A stretch of DNA of 49,434 nt, taken from the NCBI RefSeq assembly GCF_013166655.1, contig NZ_JABKCA010000040.1, forward strand, positions 1-49,434. Direction: 5' to 3'. The translations under genes and the position numbers were made by a program. Under the pieces are notes generated by a model that made no database searches, had not been told where the DNA came from, and saw nothing but the letters and a program-made list of their open reading frames with translations. Positions 18,649-42,845 of the stretch are shown in pieces. The stretch comes from Lentimicrobium sp. L6. GTDB lineage: Bacteria; Bacteroidota; Bacteroidia; Bacteroidales; UBA12170. Within the stretch, counting starts at the first letter, position 1. Each line of letters begins with the position of its first letter.

Positions 18649-18940
18649 ATTCCGATTTTGTTTATCTTCCGAGTCGACCTTTTCTCCACTTTATCAAACA
18701 GATTGGTTCCCAGAAATAAAGAGGTTCTTTTAAACTTTGGGTTTCAAACTTGAAACTTCTTGCTTCTATCCTCTCGCATTCTGTTCTTCCGTATTTCCCT
18801 GAAAAGGTGATGCAATTCCTCCCTTTTTCTGTTAAAAAGCCTATTCTTTTTATAGATTGTTTACCTTTGGTTCCCGTTATCAAATGGGGAAATTGATGAT
18901 GGTATCACCCCCTTTATAAGAGCTCCAAATATACTTGAGA
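18649..18940. other. Spacer upstream of gatE
   Basis: About 290 bases with no supportable gene. A 73-codon frame on the minus strand is low-complexity and unsupported. A near-consensus -7 box TATACTTG (18930-18937, one mismatch to TAnnTTTG) directly precedes the gatE ATG, which would give an almost leaderless transcript. Confidence 0.4.
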
Positions 18941-27699: not shown

Positions 27700-28284
27700 A
27701 TGGTAGATTATAATAGTGTATTTGAGCACAATAGAAAATGGTCAAAAGAAATGAAGGAAAAGAACCCTGAGTTCTTTGAAAATCATTTTAGCTCTCAGAA
27801 TCCTGATTTCTTATATATTGGTTGTTCCGATAGTCGTGTGAGTGTAGAAAAACTTATGGGAGTAGATATTGGGGAGGTTTTTGTGCATAGAAATATTGCT
27901 AACATGGTTTCTGCCGATGATAACAATATTATGGCTGTAATCCAATTTGCAGTTGAGGTTTTAAAAGTGAAAAATATTGTTGTAGCTGGACATACTGGCT
28001 GTGGAGGAATCAAAGCTAGTATGTGTGAGAAGTCGCAAGGTGCTATGGACGTATGGTTGAATAAAATTAAATTAGTCTATAACCGTCACAAAGAATATCT
28101 AGTAACCATTCCTGAAGATGAAAAGATGTTGGATGAGTTTAGTCGACTGAATGTGATGGAGCAATGTAGAACCATTTCAGGTTTTTCATGTGTACAAGAA
28201 AGCCAGAAGAAAACGGGTTATCCTATCATTCATGCCTGGCTATATGAAATGAAAGATGGGCATTTGACTGACTTGGAATTCTAA
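27700..28284 (+). CDS. can: Beta-class carbonic anhydrase
   Basis: A 194-aa zinc enzyme interconverting CO2 and bicarbonate. Zinc ligands and the Asp-Arg dyad are present: C42, D44 and R46 in 'GCSDSRVS', and H98 and C101 in 'AGHTGCGG'. The length is typical of a short bacterial beta carbonic anhydrase. It starts 11 bases after lepA and likely shares its transcript. Together with PEP carboxylase elsewhere in the window it would supply bicarbonate for anaplerosis; this link is inference. Confidence 0.93.
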   Translation: MVDYNSVFEHNRKWSKEMKEKNPEFFENHFSSQNPDFLYIGCSDSRVSVEKLMGVDIGEVFVHRNIANMVSADDNNIMAVIQFAVEVLKVKNIVVAGHTGCGGIKASMCEKSQGAMDVWLNKIKLVYNRHKEYLVTIPEDEKMLDEFSRLNVMEQCRTISGFSCVQESQKKTGYPIIHAWLYEMKDGHLTDLEF

Positions 28285-28293
28285 AAACAATAT

Positions 28294-28337
28294 CCGCTAA
28301 TTCACACGAATTAACTGATTTTCGCGAATTAATGATT
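28294..28337. repeat. Degenerate ACGAATTAA-type intergenic repeat
   Basis: The spacer contains CGCTAATTCACACGAATTAACTG and TTCGCGAATTAATGATTC, two near copies of (A/G)CGAATTAA. From memory such degenerate AT-rich strings recur between genes of many Bacteroidota genomes; comparable stretches occur at about 421-475 and 36322-36356. Function unknown. Confidence 0.35.
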
Positions 28338-28454
28338 CATAAACTATTAGGATGGAAATATTTGATTAGGATTTTGTATGTATCCTATGAAGTACTAATT
28401 CAATCATTCACTCATTAATTCCTTATCCCAATCCATCCATCTAGTATTGATCCT

Positions 28455-29174
28455 TTACAGGTTAGCAGCCAATAAATCCACAATATGAATAGTCTTGATG
28501 GGAAGGTTATGTTTATCTATATATCCTTGGATATGCATGAGACAACTGGCGTCGGTACTTACGATATACTCAGCCTCGGTAGCTAAAGCATTTTCTACTT
28601 TTTGTTCGGCCATGGCCGTGCTAATTCCTTCAAACTTCACGGAGAAAGTTCCACCGAAACCACAACAAGTATCAGCGTCTTTCATTTCAATGAGCTCCAA
28701 TCCCTTTACATTCTTCAATAAGGTTCTTACTTCATGGGTCAATCCATATTCTCTTTTGCTGACACAACTTTCATGATAAGTTACTTTATGAGGGAATTCA
28801 GCACCGACATCTTCTTTTTTCAATACATTCACTATAAAGTCTGAGATTTCATAGGTGTTTGATTTTAGTGTTTTGTATTCATTATGTAAAGCTGAATTAT
28901 GAAAAAGCTTGGCATAATGCTTCTTCACCATCCCAGAACAGGAAGAAGAAGGGCTCACTACAGGTCTATTATTGGAGAAATCCTTAATATGTTTTGCCCC
29001 CATAGCTTTGGCTTCATCCCAGAATCCACTGTTGAAAGCCATTTGACCACAACAGCTTTGCTCAGGATTATAATGAACTTCCACCCCTAATTTCTTAAGT
29101 AATTTAATCATATTGAAGGCAGTATCAGGAAAAACCTGATCTATAAAACAAGGGATAAAAGCATCAACAATCAT
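28455..29174 (-). CDS. LutA-like (Fe-S)-binding oxidoreductase, CCG-domain protein
   Basis: A 239-aa protein with two cysteine-rich CCG domains of the heterodisulfide reductase/LutA/GlpC type: 'IPCFIDQVFP', 'QSCCGQMAFNSG' and 'SSSCSGMVKKHY' in the first half, 'YHESCVSKREYG' and 'DTCCGFGGTFS' in the second. LutA works with LutB and LutC in lactate oxidation, but no lutB or lutC is next to it, so the partner must lie elsewhere or the role differs. The ATG at 29174 (MIVDAFIPCF) is preferred to an upstream alternative because family members start there. It is the last chromosomal gene before the integrative element; its start lies 73 bases from the left repeat. Confidence 0.85.
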   Translation of the reverse strand: MIVDAFIPCFIDQVFPDTAFNMIKLLKKLGVEVHYNPEQSCCGQMAFNSGFWDEAKAMGAKHIKDFSNNRPVVSPSSSCSGMVKKHYAKLFHNSALHNEYKTLKSNTYEISDFIVNVLKKEDVGAEFPHKVTYHESCVSKREYGLTHEVRTLLKNVKGLELIEMKDADTCCGFGGTFSVKFEGISTAMAEQKVENALATEAEYIVSTDASCLMHIQGYIDKHNLPIKTIHIVDLLAANL

Positions 29175-29246
29175 AGGTATGTATTTATTTACAAAAGTAG
29201 AAAAAAATTGTTGCTCATTATTTCCTGTTGAAAACAATTCTAAGAG

Positions 29247-29378
29247 ATTTTCTGAACCGTAAAATTTAACTTGCTACCCATTGAAAATTAACTATTTTTG
29301 TGCTTTCCTGCTAAAATTCAGTAATTGAAATTAAATAATCATTAAAATAAACAATTATGTTAAAAGGACACCCTAAAG
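29247..29378 (+). repeat. Left attachment site repeat (attL)
   Basis: This 132-bp sequence is identical, base for base, to 34422-34553. It contains a full promoter and the first seven codons of the POT transporter, then diverges after CCCTAAAG. The flanking base on the left (G) differs from the right copy (A), which sets the boundary. Confidence 0.9.
29271..29300 (+). promoter_or_regulatory. Duplicated promoter copy at attL (TTG-N19-TATTTTTG)
   Basis: TTG (29271-29273), a 19-base spacer and TATTTTTG (29293-29300) match the Bacteroidota primary sigma consensus. This is the copy of the transporter promoter separated from the gene by the insertion; it now reads into the element's left end. Confidence 0.6.
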
Positions 29379-29389
29379 TTGATTTTTGA
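29357..29389 (+). pseudogene. Orphan 10-codon stub of the POT transporter
   Basis: ATG at 29357 starts the same seven codons as the transporter (MLKGHPK), then reads VDF and stops at 29389. It is the severed start left by the insertion, still behind an intact promoter copy. Confidence 0.7.
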
Positions 29390-29693
29390 CATGTCATTTC
29401 CAGTTACTTACAATATACTTTCAAAAATTTAGCATCTTATTTGCAAACAAAGAACGATTAAAACCACTCTGGTTTATAAAGGTTAAAGATACAAAATATC
29501 ATTGAATCCATCAAAGTATCAGCATAGTATTTATAAGAATAATAAGATTAATTTCATCTATTAAAATAAGCTAGCATATACTTAGCCAAGACTATAAAGA
29601 TTGATTTAGGTATCAGTATTTAGATATTAGATGGCCACCGTCAAAAGTGATGATTGTCGTAAGCGGTTTCACCTTCTCTCCTGCGGTGAAATT
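29379..29693. other. Left end of the integrative element, no gene
   Basis: 315 bases without a gene. A 12-mer ATTTGCAAACAA at 29439-29450 recurs in the same orientation at 34372-34383 near the other end and may be an integrase arm-type site. A hairpin TTTCACC/GGTGAAA lies near 29669-29690, just beyond the stop codon of the first element gene. Confidence 0.45.
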
Positions 29694-30194
29694 TTACTCA
29701 GTAAACAACCTCTTTTTAGCTAACTGGAATTCATCCTCAGACAATACACCTTTTTCTTTTAAGTTAACTAATTTATTTATGTCATTAATCAATATGTTAT
29801 TCGAGCTTTCAGAATTGGCTTTTTCCTTCTTAGATAAAGATTCTTGTTGAGGCTGTATTATAGGGTCTTGCATAGGCGCATTTTTTTCTGGTGAATTAAT
29901 TGCCCATATTAAAGCACCTATCCAACCTAATAAAGTCCAACCTAATAATAGATTGATAATAAGAATGCTTTTAGCATGAACCTTTTGTAAGCCAATGATT
30001 ATAGGAATAAAATAGAAAACGATTAAGCCAACCCAAAGAATAATAGCATTTATATAAAATAATATCTTGCTACTGACTAGAATAGAACTATAAGTATCAC
30101 TAAAGAGAAAAAGAAGAATCAAAATTGGAAAAATCATTCCTATTACTAATAAAGGTTTCTTTATTCTAGTAATCATATTTTTATATTTTTCCAT
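29694..30194 (-). CDS. Imm-superinfection-like membrane protein with SHOCT tail
   Basis: A 166-aa membrane protein. Hydrophobic segments lie near residues 13-32, 42-66 and 78-100. The segment 'PIIIGLQKVHAKSILIINLLLGWTLLGWIGALIWAI' (~64-100, quoted in part) closely resembles the superinfection-immunity (Imm) family of phage T4: a polar helix with a K-x-x-N-L-x-L-G-W-T-x-x-G-W-x-x-A-L-I-W-A pattern. The C-terminal ~28 residues ('INKLVNLKEKGVLSEDEFQLA') are a SHOCT domain, a short helical module found on the ends of many membrane proteins. In T4, Imm blocks DNA entry by later phage; a similar exclusion role here is inference. Many Imm-like SHOCT proteins are also found outside phages. Confidence 0.7.
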   Translation of the reverse strand: MEKYKNMITRIKKPLLVIGMIFPILILLFLFSDTYSSILVSSKILFYINAIILWVGLIVFYFIPIIIGLQKVHAKSILIINLLLGWTLLGWIGALIWAINSPEKNAPMQDPIIQPQQESLSKKEKANSESSNNILINDINKLVNLKEKGVLSEDEFQLAKKRLFTE

Positions 30195-30275
30195 GATAAA
30201 AATTGTAAATAGTTAGTATGATATGTTTAAAATATCCATTGCGGATTCAAAATTTTTCAATTCCTTTTCAGAATA

Positions 30276-30644
30276 TTAATCAATTAGTTTTTTCTTCGCT
30301 TTTTGAAATTCTTCTTCATTCAATATACCTTCTTTCTTTAACTTTGCCAACCTTTCTAGTTGCTCCGTCATATTAGAAGCATCAGTTTTTTGATTCATCT
30401 TTCTTTGTTCTTCTATTGCTTCTCTTTGTAAATTAATTGATTCTTCTTGGATTTGCTTTTCATCTTCAGAGTCTTTCAAACTTTTTGATAGGATGACAAT
30501 AACAAACCCTATTATAGAGTTTAAAATAAAAGAAATTAAAAACGCTTTACCTCCGCCGATTTTACGATAAGAACCAATAATTGAAACAATTATCGACCCT
30601 ATTGTATTATAAAATAAATATTCCAAAACATCTCCACCTTCCAT
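30276..30644 (-). CDS. Small membrane protein with SHOCT C-terminal domain
   Basis: A 122-aa protein with two predicted helices near residues 10-25 and 34-53 ('AFLISFILNSIIGFVIVIL'), a charged coiled-coil stretch (~55-88, Glu/Gln/Lys rich), and a C-terminal SHOCT module ('LERLAKLKKEGILNEEEFQKA'). Its tail resembles that of the neighbouring Imm-like protein, so the two may interact or be oligomerisation partners; this is inference. It lies 81 bases upstream of that gene on the same strand and 12 bases downstream of a small lipoprotein gene, so an operon of three is likely. Confidence 0.65.
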   Translation of the reverse strand: MEGGDVLEYLFYNTIGSIIVSIIGSYRKIGGGKAFLISFILNSIIGFVIVILSKSLKDSEDEKQIQEESINLQREAIEEQRKMNQKTDASNMTEQLERLAKLKKEGILNEEEFQKAKKKLID

Positions 30645-30656
30645 ATTATTGTAATT

Positions 30657-30845
30657 TTATTTTTTTACTACTTTATCACATTTAGTACAATACCAAGCAT
30701 AAATATCATTATAGTTTTCATCCATACCAACTATTGTTTTTTTCAAATTATGTGAACCATTATCTTTAGGACAAACATTGTTTTTTGAATTTCCACAGCT
30801 GACAAATAAGCAGCTAATAATTAAATATGCTAATATTTTTTTCAT
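30657..30845 (-). CDS. Small lipoprotein with cysteine-pair motif
   Basis: A 62-aa predicted lipoprotein. The signal peptide ends in lipobox 'LFVSC' (C17). The 45-residue mature part contains a lone Cys in 'NVCPKDNGSHNL' and 'YCTKCDKVVKK' at the end, a CxxC pair that could bind zinc together with the first Cys and His. I do not recognise the family. It starts the short operon with the two SHOCT membrane proteins. Confidence 0.6.
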   Translation of the reverse strand: MKKILAYLIISCLFVSCGNSKNNVCPKDNGSHNLKKTIVGMDENYNDIYAWYCTKCDKVVKK

Positions 30846-31106
30846 AGGTGAATACTTAAAGTTTACATATAGCGGTAAAGTTAATAATAATAAGAATATT
30901 CTTACTATTTATCTGAATCTATTTATCGTTTAACCTGACTTTGAGGATTAATGATAGGTTTAATTGATTAAGTGATTGATATTTTAACCTCAATTATGGA
31001 TACAATATATCTGATATGAGTTTAAAGCCTTAATTCATCAATACGTATAGCTAAGAATTACAATTTATGGGTGTATAATTGAGTTTGCTTTCTCTCTCTC
31101 CTTGAT
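30846..31106. other. AT-rich spacer within the element
   Basis: About 260 bases between the lipoprotein gene and the terminator of the upstream unit, without a supportable gene. It should carry the promoter of the lipoprotein/SHOCT operon, but no exact TAnnTTTG box was identified. Confidence 0.35.
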
Positions 31107-31143
31107 TTAAAAAGAGGACGCCATATTTCAGACATCCTCTTTA
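31107..31143 (-). terminator. Terminator of the RHH/191-aa gene pair
   Basis: Read on the minus strand, AAAGAGGA (complement of 31135-31142) pairs with TCCTCTTT (complement of 31111-31118) and is followed by TTTAAATC. It lies 25 bases beyond the stop codon of the 191-aa gene. Confidence 0.65.
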
Positions 31144-31167
31144 AAGAAAAGTAGAGTTTTTGATTAA

Positions 31168-31743
31168 CTATTTCCAGCTAAATCTGGAAGGTTTCTCCAC
31201 AACTGGCTCAGTATACTCACTCATGCCTAGTATGGTTTTGATTTTAACCTTGTTTCCATATACATTTTCTAAGGTTAGTATTTTATCCAAATCCTTATCT
31301 TCATATACCTCGTCAATATCTAAGTCCTTATAAGACTGGAATAAGATTTTGGCAAGCTCCTTTTTGTCTTTATAGGTTGCATCAAAATCCAGCCTCTCTA
31401 CAAAGTGTTTTCTTACCTTTTCAATATTGTCTTCCTTAAAGCTTTTACGAGCTTCTCGTAAAGTTTCAATTATTTCTTTAGTTATACTATCTGCCAAATT
31501 AGAGTTGAATATTATTTTTCCATACTCTCTACATCCAAATAATTCAAAGTGCTCAACCTTGTCAGAGGTGACAATCAACTTATCTATATTTACTGATAGT
31601 TGGTTTCTGGTTAGTACTTTGTTAGCTAGTTTGTAAAGTGACCTTAAAGTCGAAAACTCTTGGCGTAGTATTTCACTAGCCTGATTTATTTTTGTACTCT
31701 TTAATTCTTTAACCTTCTTCTTTACAAAATCTTCTCTATTCAT
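31168..31743 (-). CDS. Hypothetical protein (191 aa) of the integrative element
   Basis: A soluble, highly charged 191-aa protein with no signal peptide or membrane helix. Predicted helices dominate the N-terminal part ('MNREDFVKKKVKELKSTKINQ' onwards) and the middle ('EIIETLREARKSFKEDNIEKVRKHF'). I recognise no domain. Its start is two bases from the stop of a predicted ribbon-helix-helix gene upstream, so the two are almost certainly co-transcribed. That layout recalls a DNA-binding regulator with a partner protein, as in toxin-antitoxin or mobilisation modules, but no toxin or relaxase motif is visible. Confidence 0.6.
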   Translation of the reverse strand: MNREDFVKKKVKELKSTKINQASEILRQEFSTLRSLYKLANKVLTRNQLSVNIDKLIVTSDKVEHFELFGCREYGKIIFNSNLADSITKEIIETLREARKSFKEDNIEKVRKHFVERLDFDATYKDKKELAKILFQSYKDLDIDEVYEDKDLDKILTLENVYGNKVKIKTILGMSEYTEPVVEKPSRFSWK

Positions 31744-31744
31744 T

Positions 31745-31900
31745 CTACTTGTTTAAAATTATTAATCGAATCAACTCTTGATAACTGATATTTGAACCAC
31801 TCATTTTTATTAAATAATCTAATTTTGATTTTAGTTCCTTATTCAAAAAAATACTGATTAACTTCCCTTGCTGATACTTTCTATAAAAACTCTTTTCCAT
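31745..31900 (-). CDS. Predicted 51-aa ribbon-helix-helix DNA-binding protein
   Basis: A 51-codon gene (MEKSFYRKYQQGKLISIFLN... ends LIRLIILNK). The pattern fits an Arc/CopG/MetJ-type ribbon-helix-helix fold: a strand 'KLISIFLN', helix A 'KELKSKLDYLIKMSG', a short turn 'SNIS' and helix B 'YQELIRLIILNK'. Such proteins bind DNA as dimers through the strand and often autoregulate their operon. Its stop lies two bases before the start of the 191-aa gene. Small size and low complexity make it easy to miss. An excisionase-like or copy-control role in the element is possible. Confidence 0.5.
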   Translation of the reverse strand: MEKSFYRKYQQGKLISIFLNKELKSKLDYLIKMSGSNISYQELIRLIILNK

Positions 31901-31996
31901 TTCATTATATTAATTTTCAATCTGTTATATGTTATTCAAAAAAGTTCCTCCCATCCTTAAATATATATCTATTTAAAGATAGGCGGTACTAATTTT

Positions 31997-32731
31997 TCAA
32001 GCTGCCATTTCTGAATATTTTTTCCAATAGGTTTTTAGGGTTTTAACTCCAAATTCATCCATATTATATTTTTTTAGTTCCTCTTTTCTTTCCTTATACA
32101 CATCTTTGATTTGCCTAAGCCCAGTTTTAAAGATTTGGTCTTTGATAGTTTCTGACGATATAAATATCTTGGCTTCAATCATAGCATCAATAACTTCGTT
32201 TATTTTTTTACTATTCTCATATTTAACCAATATACCCTTGGCCTTATTAACTAAATTCCTATTCTCAAATCCAAATTTGCCAGTATAATAATCATGCTTT
32301 TCTTTCCAGTCGATAGACATATAATATTCTTTACTTGGGATAATACCTTCTAAGTTTTTTGTATCATCCAAAGCTTGGTCTATTAGTTGAGTATGAATTT
32401 TGTTAAAGTTGAAATTCAACAAACTGTTATTGTTAATCCTATTAATGGCCGAATCTAATACTATATATAAAGTATTAAAGTCTCTTTTAGTTGGATTAAG
32501 TTGAATAAACCTAACTAAATGACCACGGAGCAATCCTATTTTATTGTATGAATCAAATTTATCAACCCATAAATCAAGTGAAAGTTTGTAATATGGCTTA
32601 TTTGGTTTATAGACGATTCCATATTCGGGTATATCTATCTTTTCTGTACAACCTTCTTTCAAATTAGGATTAATATTCACTTCAAAGTTAAACCCAAGAC
32701 TACTAAACACATTCTTATCAACCAGCATCAT
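31997..32731 (-). CDS. Hypothetical protein (244 aa) of the integrative element
   Basis: A soluble, Lys/Asn-rich protein of 244 aa from the ATG at 32731 (a second ATG follows directly; a TTG upstream would add 14 residues). No signal peptide or membrane segment. The middle ('YYKLSLDLWVDKFDSYNKIGLLRGHLVRFIQLN', in part) and the helical C-terminus ('DVYKERKEELKKYNMDEF') match no family I can name. Its place between the recombinase and the RHH gene, next to a pair of direct repeats, would suit a replication or recombination accessory protein, but nothing in the sequence proves this. Confidence 0.55.
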   Translation of the reverse strand: MMLVDKNVFSSLGFNFEVNINPNLKEGCTEKIDIPEYGIVYKPNKPYYKLSLDLWVDKFDSYNKIGLLRGHLVRFIQLNPTKRDFNTLYIVLDSAINRINNNSLLNFNFNKIHTQLIDQALDDTKNLEGIIPSKEYYMSIDWKEKHDYYTGKFGFENRNLVNKAKGILVKYENSKKINEVIDAMIEAKIFISSETIKDQIFKTGLRQIKDVYKERKEELKKYNMDEFGVKTLKTYWKKYSEMAA

Positions 32732-32921
32732 AATTTCCTTTTTTATTACATACGCCAGGGTAACAAAACACATGTGTCTGATAATCTACACTTTAAAAAA
32801 TAAGGTTCGCCATGTTTTGCTATTAGTAATAAAACATCATGTCAAAGAACTTTTCTAGAAATCATTTTCCCAAACATTTAAGGAGGTCTAGTTAAGTTTA
32901 TAGAGGTATTACACATTAAAT

Positions 32922-33170
32922 CTATGTTTGGGATATTTGTATAGCCACTTGTAAAAAGTTCCTAAAAGCACAATACATTACCTAAAAAAAGGCCATATAA
33001 TTAGTTAATAGATGTATCCTAAGAAGTACAGAACTTTTAGTTTGTAATATTTTTTAACCCTTTATAGCATTGGGGCATTTTTTGTAAAAGTCAATTCTAC
33101 ACAATTTAGCTATGTTTGGGATATCAATATGTTTACAGGTAGAAAGTGCCTAAAAGCTTAATACATTACC
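32922..33170. repeat. Pair of ~61-bp imperfect direct repeats downstream of the recombinase gene
   Basis: Unit 1 (32922-32982) and unit 2 (33110-33170) align without gaps at 48 of 61 bases. Conserved blocks are CTATGTTTGGGATAT at the start and CCTAAAAGC plus AATACATTACC at the end. They lie in the 450-base gene-free stretch 32732-33183 between the recombinase and the 244-aa gene. Candidate roles are accessory-protein or excisionase binding sites, or iterons of an origin. Confidence 0.65.
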
Positions 33171-33183
33171 CACTAAATACCAA

Positions 33184-34341
33184 TTAAACCAGCTTCATCA
33201 TACTATCTTTCATTTGCTGGTCTGTAAAGCTGCCTAAATAGTTTTGAGTAGTAGCAATATTTTGGTGGCCTAATGACTGACTTATAAATACTATGCTTGC
33301 TCCTTTATTCATTAAAATAGTGGCGAAGCTGTGACGGGCTGAATAAGTAGTGATTTTAGGAATTTGAAGTTCTTCACATGCTTGCTTTAAGGTGTAGTTT
33401 ATTTTAATGGTGAGTGAATTCACTTTCTTGTAAACATGCTCCGCTTCTTCATTTTCCAATACAGGAAATATAAAATCATTGGCGCTTGTATATTTCTCAA
33501 TGATTTCTTTTGCTTCTGGAAGTAAGTATATTTTAATTGGTTTATTGGTTTTGGCTCTGTGGTAAACCAAGTATTCACCTTGTAGATTCTTTTTCTTTAG
33601 TAAAACTATATCTTTAATATTGACACCTCCACTAAAATAACTAAAGCGGTATAAATCCATATAGAAATTAAATGCATCAATTTTAAACTTATAGGATAGA
33701 ACTTTCTTTAGTCTTTTTTCTGTAAGAGCTCTCTTATTATTATTTGCCTGTGGAACTTTGTATTTATCAAAAGGATAAACCTTAAACAATTCCTTATTGG
33801 CATTAACAACTGCCTTAAAAGCTCTCATATAAATTGAAACAGTACTAATACTTTTACTCTCTGAAATAAGAAATGAATGAAAGTCTTCTAAAAGCTTACT
33901 ATTAACCTGTGCTATTCTAATACCTTTTCTAAATCTTAATAGTGCTTTTTGGGTGTTAACATAGGTGATTGCAGTATTATATTTTTCCTTACTCTTAAAT
34001 TCGTCTGCTCTTTCCTGAAATAAGTCATTTATAAACACTTTTTGGACTGCCTTTGGCTTAGTTCCAGAAAAATTCTCTTTGAACAATTCAAAATCAAAAT
34101 CTTTCATTTCATCCAATATTAGATTGGCCTTGGCTTCATATTGAATTAATTTCTTCTTAATAGATGTAATGTTTTTGGGTAATCGTTTTAAGCTGGTATA
34201 ATCTTTATATTCTTTTAAACTCATATAAAGCTTTAAGCTAATAAAACTAGTTTGTCTTAGGTTTGTAATTCTCAATTTAAAAGGATATCCATCTTTTGTT
34301 TTTCTCCTTTTGTCATAAAAAATAGAAGCTGTTGCTCTCAT
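33184..34341 (-). CDS. Tyrosine recombinase/integrase of the element
   Basis: A 385-aa phage-type integrase of the Bacteroidota family. An arm DNA-binding domain (~1-90, 'SIFYDKRRKTKDGYPFKLRI'), a SAM-like core-binding domain (~105-205) and a catalytic domain (~215-385) are present. Catalytic residues seen: Lys in 'YHRAKTNKPIKI' (~264), Arg-His in 'TTYSARHSFATIL' (R336, H337), His in 'LGHQNIATTQNYLG' (H359) and nucleophile Tyr368. The first catalytic Arg (box I) seems replaced: 'SGGVNIKDIVLL' has Asn241 where TGxRxxEL has Arg, a departure also reported for the CTnDOT integrase. The ATG at 34341 is chosen over a TTG upstream. It ends next to the direct repeats and starts 80 bases from attR. 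Confidence 0.93.
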   Translation of the reverse strand: MRATASIFYDKRRKTKDGYPFKLRITNLRQTSFISLKLYMSLKEYKDYTSLKRLPKNITSIKKKLIQYEAKANLILDEMKDFDFELFKENFSGTKPKAVQKVFINDLFQERADEFKSKEKYNTAITYVNTQKALLRFRKGIRIAQVNSKLLEDFHSFLISESKSISTVSIYMRAFKAVVNANKELFKVYPFDKYKVPQANNNKRALTEKRLKKVLSYKFKIDAFNFYMDLYRFSYFSGGVNIKDIVLLKKKNLQGEYLVYHRAKTNKPIKIYLLPEAKEIIEKYTSANDFIFPVLENEEAEHVYKKVNSLTIKINYTLKQACEELQIPKITTYSARHSFATILMNKGASIVFISQSLGHQNIATTQNYLGSFTDQQMKDSMMKLV

Positions 34342-34421
34342 AAATATTATATTATGAGTGGTCGTCTGTAAATTTGCAAACAATTTGCATTTAAGAAAGC
34401 CTGTTTAGGTATCATTCAGTA

Positions 34422-34553
34422 ATTTTCTGAACCGTAAAATTTAACTTGCTACCCATTGAAAATTAACTATTTTTGTGCTTTCCTGCTAAAATTCAGTAAT
34501 TGAAATTAAATAATCATTAAAATAAACAATTATGTTAAAAGGACACCCTAAAG
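34422..34553 (+). repeat. Right attachment site repeat (attR), rebuilding the transporter 5' end
   Basis: Identical to 29247-29378. It carries the promoter TTG-N19-TATTTTTG, the leader, and the first codons of the POT gene (ATG at 34532). An 11-mer ATTCAGTAATT inside the repeat (34491-34501) has an extra copy straddling its left edge (34414-34424). Confidence 0.9.
34446..34475 (+). promoter_or_regulatory. Promoter of the POT transporter gene (TTG-N19-TATTTTTG)
   Basis: TTG at 34446-34448 and TATTTTTG at 34468-34475 with 19 bases between them fit the Bacteroidota sigma consensus (TTTG, N19-21, TAnnTTTG). It lies inside attR, 56 bases before the ATG, so the gene keeps a complete promoter after insertion. 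Confidence 0.65.
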
Positions 34554-36070
34554 GGCTTATCCCCGCTTCGTTAGCTAATATGGGCGAACGATTTGGATTT
34601 TACACCATGATGGCTATTTTGGTGCTGTTTCTCCAAGCTAAGTTTGGTTTAACAGGTACCGATGCTGGTTACATCTATTCTGGATTTTATTTCTCTATTT
34701 ACATCCTCGCATTGGTGGGTGGTATCATAGCCGATAAAATCCAAAACTTTAAAGGAACTATTATTGCTGGTTTATTTCTTATGAGTGCAGGATACCTCAT
34801 TATGGCTATCCCAACTCCAACACCAGTGGCTAGTGTTCCATTTTATTTAACTATCTCCATTATTGGTTTATTTGTGATTGCTTTTGGTAATGGTTTATTC
34901 AAAGGTAACTTACAAGCTTTAGTTGGTCAAATGTATGATAATGAGAAATATGGTGCCATGAGAGACTCTGGTTTCTCTTTATTTTATGCTTTCATTAATG
35001 TAGGTGCCATTTTTGCTCCATTTACTGCCATTGGTGTTCGTAACTGGTGGTTGGGCAAATTCAACTTTACTTACGATGGTAGTTTACCTGAGTATTGTCA
35101 TGCTTACCTCAATGGTTCTTTATCTGAAGATTCTATTGCTAATTTTAAAACTGCTGCTGAAACGGTTTCAGGAAAAGCCGTTAATGATTTAACAGCCTTC
35201 TCTAACGAGTATTTAAATGTATTTAACGAAGGATTCCATTATGCATTTGGTGTAGCGATTATTGCTATGGCTATTTCTACGGTTATTTTCTTTATGAATA
35301 AGAAGAATTTCCCAAATCCAAAAGTTAAAGCTGCTGCAGGTGAAATCACTGACGAAATTAAAATGGAAGCTAAAGAAGTAGCACAAAGAATGTATGCTTT
35401 ATTAGCTGTATTTGGTGTAGTTATCTTCTTCTGGTTCTCTTTCCACCAAAATGGACTTACGCTAACTATGTTTGCGAGAGATTATACTGACTTAAGCTTA
35501 TTGGTATTTACCATAGGTGGTATTACCTTTAAAGGTGCCGAAGTTTTCCAAGCTATGAATCCTATCTTTGTTGTTGCTTTAACACCAATTGTAGTTGGAT
35601 TATTTGGTTGGCTTCGTGTACGAAATATGGAACCATCTACTCCTAAGAAAATTGCCATTGGTATGGGTATTGCCATGCTAGGTTTTGTATTGATGATGTT
35701 TGGTTCATTTGGTTTACCATTATTCAACGAGGTGAGCTCTGCAAACGGAGGAACTCCTTTAGATGATATTCATCGTGTTACACCATTCTTATTGGCTGGT
35801 ACTTATTTCATCCTTACTGTTGCTGAGCTATTTATTAGCCCAATGGGAATTTCATTTGTTTCTAAAGTTGCTCCACCACAGTATCAAGGTTTGATGCAAG
35901 GTGGTTGGTTAGGTGCTACAGCTCTTGGTAATGGACTATTGTTCATAGGTGCTGTTCTTTATGAAACTATTCCAATTTGGATGACATGGGGAATTTTTGT
36001 TGTAGCTTGTGCTATTTCAATGTTTACGATTATCTTTATGGTGAAATGGCTTGAGCGTGTTGCCAAGTAA
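34532..36070 (+). CDS. POT/PTR2 family proton-coupled oligopeptide transporter
   Basis: A 512-aa MFS-type protein with about 12-14 transmembrane helices. POT family features: the N-terminal 'LANMGERFGFYTMMAIL' segment, 'GGIIADK' at the first cytosolic loop, and 'IGLFVIAFGNGLFKGNLQALVGQMYD' (~110-135, in part). The usual ExxER proton motif of helix 1 reads NxxER (N16, E19, R20), so coupling may differ, although I recall this variant in other Bacteroidota. It would import di- and tripeptides, fitting with the secreted peptidases in the window. The first seven codons lie inside attR, so the element supplies or restores the 5' end. Confidence 0.9.
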   Translation: MLKGHPKGLIPASLANMGERFGFYTMMAILVLFLQAKFGLTGTDAGYIYSGFYFSIYILALVGGIIADKIQNFKGTIIAGLFLMSAGYLIMAIPTPTPVASVPFYLTISIIGLFVIAFGNGLFKGNLQALVGQMYDNEKYGAMRDSGFSLFYAFINVGAIFAPFTAIGVRNWWLGKFNFTYDGSLPEYCHAYLNGSLSEDSIANFKTAAETVSGKAVNDLTAFSNEYLNVFNEGFHYAFGVAIIAMAISTVIFFMNKKNFPNPKVKAAAGEITDEIKMEAKEVAQRMYALLAVFGVVIFFWFSFHQNGLTLTMFARDYTDLSLLVFTIGGITFKGAEVFQAMNPIFVVALTPIVVGLFGWLRVRNMEPSTPKKIAIGMGIAMLGFVLMMFGSFGLPLFNEVSSANGGTPLDDIHRVTPFLLAGTYFILTVAELFISPMGISFVSKVAPPQYQGLMQGGWLGATALGNGLLFIGAVLYETIPIWMTWGIFVVACAISMFTIIFMVKWLERVAK

Positions 36071-36193
36071 TACCAATTGTAATTAAAAGTGAGATTTTTA
36101 GTCGCTTTTAGTTTTACAATGGTTTATGCCGATTTAAAATTTATAAACAATTAATTTGTATTGATTAATGTCTCTTATTTTTTAACATCGGTA
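36071..36193. repeat. Possible MITE-like element with imperfect terminal inverted repeats
   Basis: The left end TACCAATTGTAATTAAAA (36071-36088) and the reverse complement of the right end (36176-36193, beginning TACCGATGTTAAA) match at 13 of 18 bases. An inner inverted repeat ACCAATTGTAA/TTACAATGGT gives further fold-back structure. It starts right after the transporter stop codon. It could equally be a plain 3' structure. Confidence 0.3.
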
Positions 36194-36216
36194 TAATTAA
36201 ACCAGATATAATATAC

Positions 36217-36252
36217 AAAGAGGTGTTCTGTTTCAGTTCACCTCTTTTTTTT
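36217..36252 (+). terminator. Rho-independent terminator of the POT transporter gene
   Basis: Stem AAAGAGGTG / CACCTCTTT with a 13-nt loop is followed by a run of T residues to 36252. Confidence 0.8.
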
Positions 36253-36535
36253 GTTGATGGATATATAGGAATATGGGAAATGGTTGGTTCCTAACGTCAA
36301 AAAAATGATTCAAAAGAACGTGGATGACACGGATTAAATAGATCTGCACAGATTTGTTATGTTTGAATGCCTGAAACTACAAAATAGGCTAGCTGTCAAA
36401 AACTGAGCCTGAAACTTTCTCTAGCTCTCTAGTTCACCAACTCTCCATTTCCCCAAATCTCTCGTTCTCTTTTTCTCTACCTCCCTTTTTACATTTCCTT
36501 ACCAAATAATATTCGCTTTGATGGATTAGTATTTT
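36253..36535. other. Spacer with degenerate and pyrimidine-rich sequence
   Basis: Gene-free. 36322-36356 holds a degenerate GATGACACGGATTAAATAGATCTGCACAGATTT-type string (shown in part: GGATTAAATAGATCTGCACA), and 36415-36490 is a long CT-rich stretch. No coding or RNA gene is supported. Confidence 0.4.
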
Positions 36536-36543
36536 TACTTTTG
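36536..36543 (+). promoter_or_regulatory. Putative -7 box for the radical SAM gene (TACTTTTG)
   Basis: TACTTTTG matches TAnnTTTG and ends four bases before the ATG at 36548, implying a leaderless or very short-leader mRNA. A TTTG lies 15 bases upstream, closer than the usual 19. Confidence 0.4.
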
Positions 36544-36547
36544 CCGA

Positions 36548-37516
36548 ATGACTGAAACATTAGCATCCTCATATCCTTGGGGACATAAACGACGATTTAA
36601 TGCTTACGCCCAATACTTCGAACGTACTTTTGGCGAACGTGTGCAAAAAACTACTATTGATGCTGGATTTACCTGTCCGAATAGAGATGGGAAAGTAGCT
36701 AGAGGAGGCTGTACCTATTGTAATAATAATGCTTTTAATCCCAGTTATAATGATTCCAAGAAACCTGTTATTCAACAGATTCAGGAAGGTATTGAATTTC
36801 ATGCCAATAGATATCGTAGGGCCGGAAAATTCTTAGCTTATTTTCAAGCTTATTCTAATACTTACGCTCCTCTAGAAGAACTCAAAAAACTCTATGGTCC
36901 GGCCTTAGAAATGGAAAACGTGGTGGGCTTGGTCATTGGAACCAGAAGCGATTGCATGGATGAGGAAAAGCTTAAATACTTCGCTGAAGTAAGTAAAACC
37001 CATTATGTGATTTTAGAATATGGGATTGAAAGCACCTTTGATAAAACCTTGGAGAGAATTAATCGTGGGCATGATTTTCAGAATGTAATTGATATGATGA
37101 AACTCACCCATGATTATGGGGTGAAGTGTGGAGGACATATGATTTTTGGACTACCCGGCGAAAGCAGACAAGAGATGATGGATCAGGTGCATGTGTTGAA
37201 TAAATTACCCATGAATAATATCAAATTCCATCAATTACAAATTATCACTGGAACCCATATGGCCAAGGAGTTTAAAAAGTCACCTGAGAATTTTGAGCTG
37301 TTTGGAATGGAAGAGTATATCGATTTCATGGTGAGGTTTTTAGAGCAATTAAATCCTAATTTTGTAGTGGAAAGATTTGCGGGGGAGGTTCCTCCTCGAT
37401 TTTTGGTGAGTCAAGCTTGGGGAAATCTTCGTAATGATCAGATATTACAGAAGATTGAGCGGGAATTGGAAGCACGAGATACCTGGCAAGGCAAACTTTA
37501 TCTTCCAAAGAGCTAG
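36548..37516 (+). CDS. TIGR01212 family (YhcC-like) radical SAM protein
   Basis: A 322-aa radical SAM enzyme of the YhcC group, an Elp3-related family. The N-terminal segment 'WGHKRRFNAYAQYFERTFGERVQK' and 'TIDAGFTCPNRDGKVARGG' are family hallmarks. The [4Fe-4S]-SAM cluster cysteines lie in 'FTCPN...GGCTYCNN' (~C43, C54, C57). 'YFQAYSNTYAP' and 'VIGTRSDCMDEEKL' follow in the barrel, and 'GLPGESRQEMMDQV' is the SAM-binding glycine-rich strand. The substrate of YhcC proteins is not established. It is a single gene upstream of nth. Confidence 0.92.
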   Translation: MTETLASSYPWGHKRRFNAYAQYFERTFGERVQKTTIDAGFTCPNRDGKVARGGCTYCNNNAFNPSYNDSKKPVIQQIQEGIEFHANRYRRAGKFLAYFQAYSNTYAPLEELKKLYGPALEMENVVGLVIGTRSDCMDEEKLKYFAEVSKTHYVILEYGIESTFDKTLERINRGHDFQNVIDMMKLTHDYGVKCGGHMIFGLPGESRQEMMDQVHVLNKLPMNNIKFHQLQIITGTHMAKEFKKSPENFELFGMEEYIDFMVRFLEQLNPNFVVERFAGEVPPRFLVSQAWGNLRNDQILQKIERELEARDTWQGKLYLPKS

Positions 37517-38542: not shown

Positions 38543-39778
38543 TTATGCAGGAGGTGTACCTTCAGCATTAGAAACAACAGCATCAATTTGTACTAAAGCA
38601 TCCATAGGGATAGCTGAAACACCAATAACTGTCCTTGCAGGAAGATCGCCTTTGAAGAATGTGGTATAAACTTCGTTTACCACATCAATATCTGCAATAT
38701 CTTTTAATTGGATATTTACTTTAACGATATCGTCCATTACGTGGTCCACACTTTCGATAATTGCTTTGATGTTATTTAAACATTGTTCAGCTTGCTCTTT
38801 TACACCACCGGCTATAATTTCACTAGTTTTTGCATCTAAAGGTAATTGACCTGAAATATGATTGTAATGAGAAAAAGCTACTGTATGTGAGTAAGGAGCT
38901 TTTGGTGCATTTTCTGTATTGCTTGCTTCAATAATGAGTAGTTTGCTGTCTTCAATAAGTTGTGGAGGTGTACCATCACCATGTGATATAACGGTGTCAA
39001 TTTGTACCAAAGCATCCATAGCTAAAGCTGAGGCATTAACTGTGGAACGAGCAGGAACATAGTTTGGGAAAAATTTGGCACAAACTTCGTTGACTGCTTC
39101 AATATCAGTATTGTTTTTAAGAAAAATAGTTGTTTTAACTACATCTTCCATCACATGGTCTATGCTTTCTAAAATGGCTTTAACATTGCTTAAACATTGT
39201 GCTGTTTGCTCTTTTATACCACCACTTACCAAATCTCCAGTTTCAGGATTGATAGGTAATTGAGAAGAAAGGTTATTATAATGAGAAAAAGCTACCGTTT
39301 GTTTAGCGATAGCACTTTTTGGGGCATTTTTCGTATTTCTAGAAACTTTGATAAGCGCGCAAGGAGCTTGAGGAGCTGTACCTTCACCGTTTGAAATCAA
39401 AGTATCTATTTGAACCAATGCATCACTCATAGGTAGAGCTGCAACAGCAACAACAGTACGTGTAGGGCGAGAACCGGGGAAGAATTTTGCATAAACTTCA
39501 TCAATAGCATCCATATCTGAGATATTCTTAACGAATACATTGATTTTAACAACATCGTCCATTACGTGGTCGATACTTTCTACAATGGCTTTGATGTTTT
39601 TCAAACACTGCTCAGCTTGCTCTTTAACACCACCAGCTATAATTTTACCTGTCTTTGGATCGATAGCTAGTTGGGCAGAAAAATTATTATAATGAGAAAA
39701 AGCTACAGTCTGTGTAGATACAGAACACTTTGGTGCATTTTCTGTGTTTCGTGAAACTTTTATGATCTTGTCACTCAT
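38543..39778 (-). CDS. Triple-domain RidA (YjgF/UK114) family protein
   Basis: A 411-aa protein made of three tandem RidA domains (~1-137, 138-274, 278-411). Each repeats the same order: 'TVAFSHYN', 'GG(V/I)KEQ', '(D/E)HVM(D/E)D(V/I)VK', then 'R(P/S)..' or 'PAR(T/S)', and 'DALVQID'. The Arg that anchors substrate carboxylate in RidA is kept in all three (R107, R244, R382), 137-138 residues apart. RidA is normally a homotrimer with active sites between subunits and hydrolyses reactive imines and enamines from PLP enzymes. Here one chain could fold as its own trimer. No signal peptide, so cytosolic. It is monocistronic with a -7 box at 39829-39836. Confidence 0.9.
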   Translation of the reverse strand: MSDKIIKVSRNTENAPKCSVSTQTVAFSHYNNFSAQLAIDPKTGKIIAGGVKEQAEQCLKNIKAIVESIDHVMDDVVKINVFVKNISDMDAIDEVYAKFFPGSRPTRTVVAVAALPMSDALVQIDTLISNGEGTAPQAPCALIKVSRNTKNAPKSAIAKQTVAFSHYNNLSSQLPINPETGDLVSGGIKEQTAQCLSNVKAILESIDHVMEDVVKTTIFLKNNTDIEAVNEVCAKFFPNYVPARSTVNASALAMDALVQIDTVISHGDGTPPQLIEDSKLLIIEASNTENAPKAPYSHTVAFSHYNHISGQLPLDAKTSEIIAGGVKEQAEQCLNNIKAIIESVDHVMDDIVKVNIQLKDIADIDVVNEVYTTFFKGDLPARTVIGVSAIPMDALVQIDAVVSNAEGTPPA

Positions 39779-40580: not shown

Positions 40581-41095
40581 TTAAATCCTCAATCCCAACT
40601 TTATTGGAATAAAAAATGTTTGTTGCGTTATCATGAAACCAGATTGAAGATAAATATCAAATTCTTCACTAAACCTATAGTTTAATCCTCCGCCTAATTC
40701 TATTAGTGCACTCCCTGTTCCGTTTTTATACTGGTTACAAATATGATTATATCCAATTTTGAGATTTATTAAAGGGGTCAGTTTGGTTTTTAATGGTAGG
40801 TAATCAAAATCTGAAAAAATAGAAACTCCACTGATGCCTTCGAAGTTTACATACCCAAGGCCAATACCTGCGAATAATTTGTTTTTAAATTGGATTCCAT
40901 TGATGAGATTAAGATCTATTCCATTTTGTTCTTTATTAAGATTGTATCCTTTCCAATTCGGACCCGCTTCCACTTGAACCATGGTATATTGAAATCCTAA
41001 ATAGCCAGTTTCAATTTTCCCGGAATATTCTATTTGTGTTAAGCTTTTACTCCGAATATAGTCAGCAAGATTATAATTGGAATTATTCTTTTCAT
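40581..41095 (-). pseudogene. Frameshifted outer-membrane beta-barrel protein
   Basis: The main frame (40581-40982 from its only ATG) encodes alternating barrel-like strands ('LFAGIGLGYVNFEG', 'LIELGGGLNYRF', 'DIYLQSGFMITQQTFFIPIKLGLRI') with an aromatic-free but typical outer-membrane terminus. It lacks a signal peptide. The frame stays open upstream ('LTQIEYSGKIETGYLGFQYT'). An ATG at 41095 in another frame starts a signal peptide (MKRIIPIIILLTIFGVK) that stops at once. One extra A in the run opposite 41045-41048 would fuse the two into a single porin-family-like protein of about 170 aa. It is either a sequencing indel or a recent loss-of-function mutation. Confidence 0.6.
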
Positions 41096-41605
41096 TTATA
41101 TGTTTTGATTAGTATTGAGGGTTTCATTTTTTGGCCAACTATTATAATTTATTTCATTCAACCTCTTCAAATACTTGAGTGTTGAATGCTTATTTAGGAC
41201 CATTTGAGGGTTTTTGCTCAATATTAATACCTTTTTATAATCAACCCCGTTGATATTTTTTGTTCGAGCATCTACTACAGCCACTTCATTAGGTATTTCA
41301 TAGTTTTCAAATTCGATCAATTTGTTTTTGGATTCCTTGTTAATATTGAGTAATTCCCTCAAATACTCCTCAGTACCAAATGGATTCATCAAGAATTCAA
41401 ATCCTTCTAATTCATAAGTTAATTTACATTCTCCTTCTTCAGTCAAATGAATTACAAATATTCCTCCTTCGTCATGAGAATCGCCTAAAACTATTCCTCC
41501 AGAAGCTCCATCAACTATTAAATCATTCTTAAGCAAAAATGATAAAACTTCAGGTTCAATAACGCTGTTATGACTTAGTTCTTTAAATATTAGATTTGTA
41601 TTCAT
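41096..41605 (-). CDS. Hypothetical protein (169 aa)
   Basis: A soluble 169-aa protein that I do not recognise. The N-terminal half reads 'FKELSHNSVIEPEVLSFLLKND' then 'GGIVLGDSHDEGGIFVIHL', suggesting an alpha/beta fold; the C-terminal half is helical and Lys/Asn rich. No signal peptide or membrane helix. Its stop codon directly abuts the ATG of the frameshifted barrel gene at 41095, so the two probably shared a transcript. Low resemblance to immunity-type proteins crossed my mind but is not supported. Confidence 0.55.
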   Translation of the reverse strand: MNTNLIFKELSHNSVIEPEVLSFLLKNDLIVDGASGGIVLGDSHDEGGIFVIHLTEEGECKLTYELEGFEFLMNPFGTEEYLRELLNINKESKNKLIEFENYEIPNEVAVVDARTKNINGVDYKKVLILSKNPQMVLNKHSTLKYLKRLNEINYNSWPKNETLNTNQNI

Positions 41606-41911
41606 ATTCCTTAATTTCTTTTGAAAGTGAGGATTTCGTAAATTAACCTAGATGTAAATTAAAAAAATCTTGTGAGCATCCTTTATTATTTACTATTATA
41701 AAATGATATTCATATACGAAATTCCATTTCTCGAATTCCATTTTTTTTATTATCTCATTTCATAAATCACGATATTGTTTGAGTCTGCTTATTTAATAAA
41801 AAAGCTATAACAAAGAGTCCTTTCCCTAAAGTAAATGTGCTAATTCTTTTCTTTTAATATATTCAGATTTTTAGATTTACAACTGAAACCCAAATTGTAT
41901 ATGTACTTATT
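41606..41911. other. AT-rich spacer
   Basis: 306 bases with no supportable gene, promoter or RNA structure. It separates two unknown genes on the same strand. Confidence 0.35.
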
Positions 41912-42640
41912 TTAGCTCCTGTTCTGTATCCATCGATAAAATCCGACCGTATTTTTAATAATTGTTTGTACTCTTTCTGATTCACAGTTTTTATTATGTT
42001 TAGAGAAAGAGCTAATTACATCTTGTTCGCTTTTGATTAAATCATAATTTGTCCATTCAATAACATATTTATTTTCCTTAGTTCCATTTCTAAAAGGAAC
42101 ATCAAATTTTCGAATTAAAATATCATTATTAACATTACATAGTCGATTAGCTAAGCCTTTAGCCTCGGGTTCTTTCAAAAATTCAAAACATTCATGACTT
42201 ACAATTGCCCCTGCCCAAGATTGTGTGTTTTCAATTTCGTAAGCTTTAGTTAAACCTTTTCCTAAAATTGTCGTTCCATATTCATTTTTTAAAACTGAAA
42301 CTTCATCCACAGAAATCCCACCCCGTAAAGGAATTCCACCGCCTATTGAAGAACTCAATAAAATTCTACTTATAGCTAATAAATATAGAAAGCCTTTCAT
42401 AGATGTGTCTTTTTGAATTATAATTACACTGTCAGAAATAATATATATTTCTAGAGTATCAATTTCTTTCGTACCTAATGTTGGCATGATTCCATAGATT
42501 AATTTCAACATTGGCAACACCGTTTCTATAGTGTCATACAATGCAAAATCATAAATTTCAAGTAAATCTTCATGTGAATTTCTACTCACTAAATCTTTAA
42601 AACCCAAAATGTCAAAAAACGCTACAAAAGATTTATTCAT
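41912..42640 (-). CDS. Divergent class III nucleotide-cyclase-like protein
   Basis: A 242-aa soluble protein. It opens with 'SFVAFFDILGFKDLV' (metal-binding Asp10 of a cyclase-like fold), then 'LEIYIISDSVIII' (second Asp70), 'GIPLRGGISVDEV' and 'GKGLTKAYEIENTQSWAGAIVSHECFEFL'. These correspond in order to the beta1, dimerisation and substrate segments of class III adenylate/guanylate cyclases (F-x-D-I-x-G-F; G-D; R-x-G-I; A-x-x-L-E...G..IS). The usual 'GD' of the second metal site is 'SD'. Short stand-alone members of this superfamily include Pycsar defence cyclases, but no effector gene is adjacent. It may equally be an inactive sensor. Confidence 0.6.
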   Translation of the reverse strand: MNKSFVAFFDILGFKDLVSRNSHEDLLEIYDFALYDTIETVLPMLKLIYGIMPTLGTKEIDTLEIYIISDSVIIIQKDTSMKGFLYLLAISRILLSSSIGGGIPLRGGISVDEVSVLKNEYGTTILGKGLTKAYEIENTQSWAGAIVSHECFEFLKEPEAKGLANRLCNVNNDILIRKFDVPFRNGTKENKYVIEWTNYDLIKSEQDVISSFSKHNKNCESERVQTIIKNTVGFYRWIQNRS

Positions 42641-42768
42641 ATTTAATAGTTTATTAATGGCTTACTATTAACTTTTTTATACATAAGTTTGGTAAAATTA
42701 CCACAAATTAATATACGATAATAAGGAATAACTAAACTGTTGAAAAGTTCTAGTTTTAACATTTAACC

Positions 42769-42803
42769 AAAAAAAATCCCCCAGCCAAAAATGACCAGGG
42801 GAA
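42769..42803 (-). terminator. Terminator of the NADH-linked oxidoreductase operon
   Basis: Read on the minus strand, TCCCCTGG pairs with CTGGGGGA (two G-U wobbles) around a 10-nt loop and is followed by eight T residues. It lies about 45 bases beyond the stop of the large subunit gene. Confidence 0.75.
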
Positions 42804-42845
42804 ATATATAAATTGATTTAGAGATTCAATTTTAAACAATTGCTA

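Follow-up and report, generated by a model that had tools for sequence, protein, structure and literature searches.

How can a mobile element enter a protein gene within its first codons and leave that gene intact? This question is raised by a 49,434-nucleotide stretch of Lentimicrobium sp. L6 (contig NZ_JABKCA010000040.1, positions 1 to 49,434), called here the window, in which a peptide transporter gene of the POT family begins inside one of two long direct repeats. These repeats of 132 nucleotides are 100% identical, far beyond chance, and lie 5,175 bp apart from start to start. The segment that they bound is very probably a small integrative element of the tyrosine recombinase type, whose attachment site (attP) would carry a captured POT start, recombine at a core on the inner side of the repeats and restore the transporter gene. 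It is named element A; a sister at the lpdA gene of the same genome (G000) is named element B, and the occupant of the same POT site in another genome of the genus, G003, is named element C. The features that define the site in the window are the following.

29247-29378, strand not assigned: far (integrase-distal) 132-bp repeat, identical to the other copy; it is contiguous with the left flank when the empty site is aligned with genome G009
29357-29389, plus strand: truncated POT start inside the element, read from the sequence; ATG at 29357, ten codons, then a stop ending at 29389
29367-29376, minus strand: far copy of the proposed crossover core, TTAGGGTGTC
29439-29516, strand not assigned: non-coding integrase-distal end, similar to that of element B (78% over 80 columns)
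33184-34383, minus strand: tyrosine recombinase (integrase) gene, PF00589 E=3.2e-15, PF13102 E=9.1e-12
34422-34553, strand not assigned: near (integrase-proximal) 132-bp repeat, 131/132 identical to the integrase-proximal copy in G003
34532-36070, plus strand: POT-family peptide transporter gene, the target, intact, PF00854 E=3.2e-39, TIGR00924
34542-34551, minus strand: near copy of the proposed crossover core, within POT codons 4-7

The first 22 bases of the POT gene fall in the right repeat and the rest of the gene lies beyond its end. The left repeat holds the same start codon, followed by the remnant of ten codons. The far repeat is most likely the displaced promoter and first 22 bases of the host's own POT gene, and the near repeat is most likely the copy of this tract that the element carries. 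An earlier note, made from the sequence of the window alone, had described the two identical repeats, a tyrosine recombinase beside one of them and a cargo lying on one strand. This description proved exact, as every one of the seven open reading frames (ORFs) taken as genes (the integrase and proteins of 258, 51, 191, 62, 122 and 166 amino acids, aa) is on the minus strand. The integrase gene is separated from the right repeat by 38 bp, counted from its listed TTG start; alignment with relatives indicates that the true start is probably the ATG at 34341. The interior of element A has a G+C content of 28.8%, compared with 36.4% in the 20 kb to its left and 36.1% in the right flank. ARAGORN found no tRNA gene in the window, and no Rfam match was obtained within 28000-36600.

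The unoccupied site can be observed in a relative. A predicted empty site, composed of the left flank, one repeat and the right flank (2,441 bp), was aligned with G009 as a single block (8-2431, 73.3% identity), and the occupied sequence of the window gave two blocks with the same genome. The identity of G009 to the window is 73.8% in the repeat region and 72.5% in POT, so that the repeat region is not unusually conserved there. Among the ten other genomes of the genus, a POT junction that is both assembled and empty is present in G009 alone, and the junction of G003 holds another element. In G002, the POT start lies 578 bases from a contig end and the left-hand gene is not there; G001 and G007 have the POT gene only as contig-end fragments; G004, G005, G008 and G010 give only more distant POT matches, and G006 gives none. 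The segment 29379-31200 of element A is present in one of the eleven genus genomes, its own, and absent from the other ten. The comparison suggested by the earlier note, that of POT genes with and without the insertion, therefore found both situations, the occupied one beside a related recombinase in G003. Relatives that carry the repeats with no empty site anywhere, an outcome which that note had set against its own reading, are not what was found, since G009 has the empty site. Its idea of a mobile unit that uses the POT start as attB and restores the gene is supported by this empty site, by element C and by element B. As to genome size, G000 and G003, both with an element at POT, measure 5.1-5.2 Mb and the nine other genus genomes, several of them incomplete, 1.8-4.1 Mb.

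Element B (L005 7179-11842, contig C21 of the own genome) is found at the opposite end of a gene. It sits at the 3' end of lpdA, between the intact gene and a 180-bp copy of the lpdA 3' end that is 98.9% identical. Its integrase has 41% identity to that of element A and is accompanied by a 345-aa homolog of the 258-aa protein; a third ORF (164 aa), the last of this element, is on the opposite strand. The G+C content of element B is 28.6%, with the flanks of A and B at 34-36%. A match to lpdA is present in eight of the ten other genus genomes, none of which has such an integrase on the lpdA contig at E<=1e-40, and the two remaining genomes have no lpdA match. Little of the sequence downstream of lpdA is conserved, with a match of 50 bp in G003 and weak ones in G002 and G009, which makes the empty site less clear at lpdA than at POT.

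The comparison of both elements points to the position of the crossover. The repeat edges that lie inside the genes, TTTAGGGTGTC at POT and GTTAGGTTGTC in the far lpdA repeat, are alike at 9 of 11 positions; of 20,000 random pairs, 100 agree to this extent. This inner-edge motif is likely to be the crossover core, and the exact crossover point, like the choice of the element-borne copy, is proposed on that basis. With the core at the inner edge, the native gene end would be left on the far side and the integrase-proximal copy would be that of the element, in A as well as in B. The attP of the circle would then consist of the core TTAGGGTGTC and, joined to it, a captured tract with the promoter and the first seven codons of POT. 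Recombination by the integrase would take place between this core and the same core in the host gene, at codons 4-7. The native POT start would stay at the far end (29247-29378), and the element's copy (34422-34553) would join the rest of POT as a replacement end, so that the gene would keep its promoter and reading frame. A promoter-like match to the motif TTG / TAnnTTTG is present inside the repeat upstream of POT, and the repeat-borne sequence may serve the gene as promoter; there are 12 such matches across the window. A scan found 37 promoters for 31.2 expected from shuffles and one terminator for 1.8, both near the shuffle mean. The resemblance between the integrase-distal ends of A and B makes 29439-29516 a likely binding region for the integrase or an accessory protein. 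The heptamer TGTTTGC is present in each of the four 250-bp end zones of A and B (1, 1, 2 and 1 copies) and absent from that of element C, a hint only, since this motif was picked after looking. According to the available part of a review on integrative mobilizable elements (IMEs), their repeats are generally 8-60 bp long and 5' ends are used more rarely (PMC5704250). The repeats of 132 and 180 bp exceed this range, which fits host tracts that were captured or homogenised recently.

The second occupant of the POT start provides an independent view of the gene-end copies. Element C (L030 1-6506, contig C194 of G003, the contig beginning inside the element) carries a partial hsdS, hsdR (type I restriction), a DUF1643 protein and a YgjP-like protein. 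The integrases of A and C share 64% amino acid identity and their genes 69% DNA identity over 860 bp. The POT DNA of the window and of G003 is 87.7% identical, and the integrase-proximal repeat is identical at 131 of 132 positions. As a control, non-overlapping 132-bp blocks were compared between G000 and G003: after removal of the G003 match to the left repeat and of blocks starting at 34291-34553, 111 were left, and 102 once those starting at 33001-34429 (integrase) had been dropped. None of these 102 reached 131 identities (mean 83.5%; best 128). This suggests that the POT gene start moved with an element between the G000 and G003 lineages, an exchange that is deduced from these alignments. 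In G007 (L047 103-5202, contig C66), hsdR and YgjP are 88% and 87% identical to those of G003 beside a more distant integrase (39%), which indicates that cargo and integrase were reshuffled. Some further features were seen at these loci. Element C has an 84-bp direct repeat (1-84 and 225-308 of L030) at the partial hsdS; a 708-aa ORF (L030 8217-10343), which the window does not have, lies between POT and the next conserved gene in G003; and a small ORF of G007 (L047 5437-5709), presumably GIY-YIG-like, has many matches across contigs of the genus.

Several observations weigh against a restored POT start or against its exchange with G003. The core match falls to 8 of 11 when the near (integrase-proximal) lpdA copy is taken, and in the 20 kb retrieved for the related integrase of G007 the core motif is not present, the far end of that locus being off the contig. 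The identity to G003 declines gradually past the repeat, with 97% over the next 66 bases, 94% over the next 80 and then mostly 82-92%; the block just after the repeat, at 128/132, is the best of the controls. When the 132-bp window is slid along the sequence, one other position (18856-18987) also reaches 131/132, at the start of a gene at 18935. For G003, the assembly does not include the far repeat, as the contig ends within the neighbouring gene. Since the integrase genes of A and C have only 69% DNA identity, the near-repeat tract must have been transferred independently of the integrase gene, by exchange or by copying. Finally, excision and a circular form are predicted from the arrangement, no circle or excision product having been seen.

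A different crossover point would change the role of the two copies. If the exchange took place at the outer edge of the repeats, the element would have inserted upstream of POT, the near copy would be the host promoter, the far copy that of the element, and POT would never have been interrupted. The repeats alone allow a crossover anywhere in the 132 bp, and the high identity to G003 extends some way into POT. The common motif is nevertheless found at the inner edges, the outer ones being alike at only 6 of 11 positions, and the near copy is almost the same in G003 while POT overall is much less so, which leaves the outer-edge crossover improbable. There is a far smaller chance that a plasmid-like or satellite element entered by a single homologous crossover over the 132 bp, with the integrase serving another part. 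Such an event would benefit from the long perfect homology, no transfer gene was recognised, and the orphan beside the integrase gene could be a replication protein; but the integrase adjoins a repeat in A, B and C, the core motif and a similar integrase-distal end are common to A and B, and the same POT site is used by an element with other cargo. That there is no mobile element, and that the repeats come from misassembly or a plain local duplication, is hardly credible, even for a draft genome of 195 contigs with no long reads, as an integrative element is favoured by the empty site in G009, by elements C and B (which make unlikely the assembly duplication that the earlier note had named as a possible refutation), by the low G+C of both A and B and by a cargo that none of the ten other genus genomes contains.

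Restoration of POT by a captured start would place element A within a known strategy, that of the islands at dusA and prfC: a recombinase next to one attachment site, repeats that include a displaced gene start and an empty site are all observed here. SXT, at prfC, is a large conjugative element, unlike element A with its 5.2 kb and no recognised conjugation gene. Both have entered the 5' end of a housekeeping gene, with a new promoter and N-terminus coming from the element (PMC8409611, available portion). In the accessible text of the same source, IMEVchUSA3 at dusA, like SXT, is described as displacing the native gene start and supplying a replacement, and promoter and N-terminus replacement was proposed for dusA islands in general (PMC4482086, in part). 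These islands share with element A a tyrosine integrase, the insertion within the 5' end of a protein gene, the supply of a promoter and N-terminus and the original 5' end left at the other side (PMC4482086, PMC8409611). They differ by their target, which is POT for element A, and by their integrase. As far as these excerpts go, dusA islands have attachment sequences of 21 bp and supply a gene start unlike the native one in E. coli, whereas the two repeats of element A are identical over 132 bp; IncC plasmids mobilise IMEVchUSA3, and nothing comparable was found for element A. The earlier note suggested that the unit could be of a type not yet described, but insertion at a 5' end with promoter replacement is already reported for SXT and dusA islands (PMC8409611, PMC4482086). 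The integrases of mobilisable Bacteroidota elements of the NBU and Tn4555 kind belong to the same broad type as that of element A, whose best plasmid matches among those listed are Phocaeicola and Bacteroides integrases of about 25-30% identity. Known Bacteroidetes IMEs encode their own relaxase according to the accessible part of PMC5704250, and none was recognised in element A. The 10K island of Riemerella anatipestifer, another member of the phylum, is also small and has its own integrase, which moves it between att sites of 53 bp; its target is a tRNA-Arg gene (PMC6764341, in part), whereas A and B use protein genes and have repeats of 132 and 180 bp. What is new here is the integrase branch, the target genes, the long repeats and the use of both a 5' and a 3' end by one lineage.

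The remaining features of element A are listed below.

29694-30194, minus strand: 166-aa membrane protein, Imm_superinfect and SHOCT, PF14373 E=9.1e-12, phrog_1039 'immunity to superinfection' E=3.5e-17
30276-30644, minus strand: 122-aa SHOCT-domain protein, PF09851 E=1.6e-6
30657-30845, minus strand: 62-aa putative lipoprotein, an ORF labelled from the look of its N-terminus, no family above cut-off
31168-31743, minus strand: 191-aa orphan, no family above cut-off
31745-31900, minus strand: 51-aa possible ribbon-helix-helix protein, RHH_1 E=0.036, below its cut-off
31997-32773, minus strand: 258-aa orphan, homologous to the 345-aa protein of element B (37% over the alignment, about 40% in matched stretches), no family
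32910-33177, strand not assigned: two imperfect 80-nt direct repeats (75%) between the integrase and 258-aa genes

The 51- and 62-aa ORFs are less certain as genes. The 258-aa orphan, or its 345-aa homolog, adjoins the integrase in both A and B; with no family match and poor fold models, it can be guessed to be a replication or control protein. The 80-nt repeats are a possible origin or control site, and none were found in the matching place of element B. The family name of the Imm_superinfect protein suggests a possible role in defence of the host against phages. Family scans of the seven ORFs (51 aa and above) revealed no relaxase family, and no transfer, packaging, capsid, structural or known replication gene was recognised, in agreement with the earlier note, which had seen no recognisable relaxase, replicase or phage structural gene. 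The PHROGs matches of six ORFs comprise the integrase and, among families of unknown function, 'immunity to superinfection', with no structural match. Weak PADLOC scores (Csm3-like for the 122-aa protein, E=0.0035; ZorC-like for the 191-aa protein, E=0.0055) were taken as chance. That note had called the unit a possible satellite or mobilisable unit: the mobile unit is upheld, and the second part is neither supported nor dismissed, no transfer or packaging gene having been recognised. Phage satellites need not carry structural genes, some IMEs move by routes other than a relaxase of their own, and element A may be mobilised in trans.

The 258-aa protein matched its own genome alone, both among 393 genomes of the order and among 395 of the phylum. 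No relative of it was confirmed in genome contigs, in viral contigs (also by pattern search) or in phages, nor any in plasmids with the 345-aa homolog as query, in searches by short patterns and tblastn that distant kin can escape. One match in 99 genomes (G076, E=1.4e-4) was rejected as a 227-aa lipoprotein-like ORF beside an ATPase gene. Two fold models of the 258-aa protein were both poor (mean predicted local distance difference test scores, pLDDT, of 53.5 and 41.3), and Foldseek with the first gave a meaningless best E=0.35. The 191-aa protein matched, in the 393 order genomes, its own genome and one marginal hit (E=9.6e-4, 22% identity). For the integrase, only the own genome was matched at E<=1e-90 among 149 order genomes, and four of the eleven genus genomes at 1e-40. 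It matched 104 plasmid and 120 phage-collection records, all below 60% identity and the best among the matches listed at about 30%, and no relative was confirmed in viral contigs. Three of these records, whose ORFs were read, hold other genes, among them a plasmid ORF that we take to be a relaxase, and are not the same element; the match in G005 (L048) is a more distant integrase, with neighbours that are presumably phage-like. Literature searches found no paper on the POT insertion site or on this integrase branch.

Elements A and B form a matched pair within a single genome: the first occupies the start of a gene and the second the end of one, and they have related integrases and similar cores. 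Together with the second occupant of the POT site in a sister species, they make it possible to study directly how integrases switch from one target gene to another and how the gene fragments restored by such elements are acquired in the first place. Should the comparison with G003 hold, gene starts and promoters travel between species on such elements. A bolder and rather unlikely extension would be a lineage of minimal integrative replicons. A single integrase branch and a new protein of replication type (258/345 aa) would define it, its captured host gene-end tracts of 132-180 bp would be exchangeable, and its members would be able to enter unrelated genes at either the 5' or the 3' end without loss of gene function and would carry gene starts and promoters between species.

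Two other regions of the window, both to the right of POT, drew attention. A 411-aa ORF at 38543-39778 is composed of three similar repeats, which we take to be RidA-like. At 41000-43000, a second stretch of low G+C (28-30%) contains small minus-strand ORFs of 169 and 242 aa.

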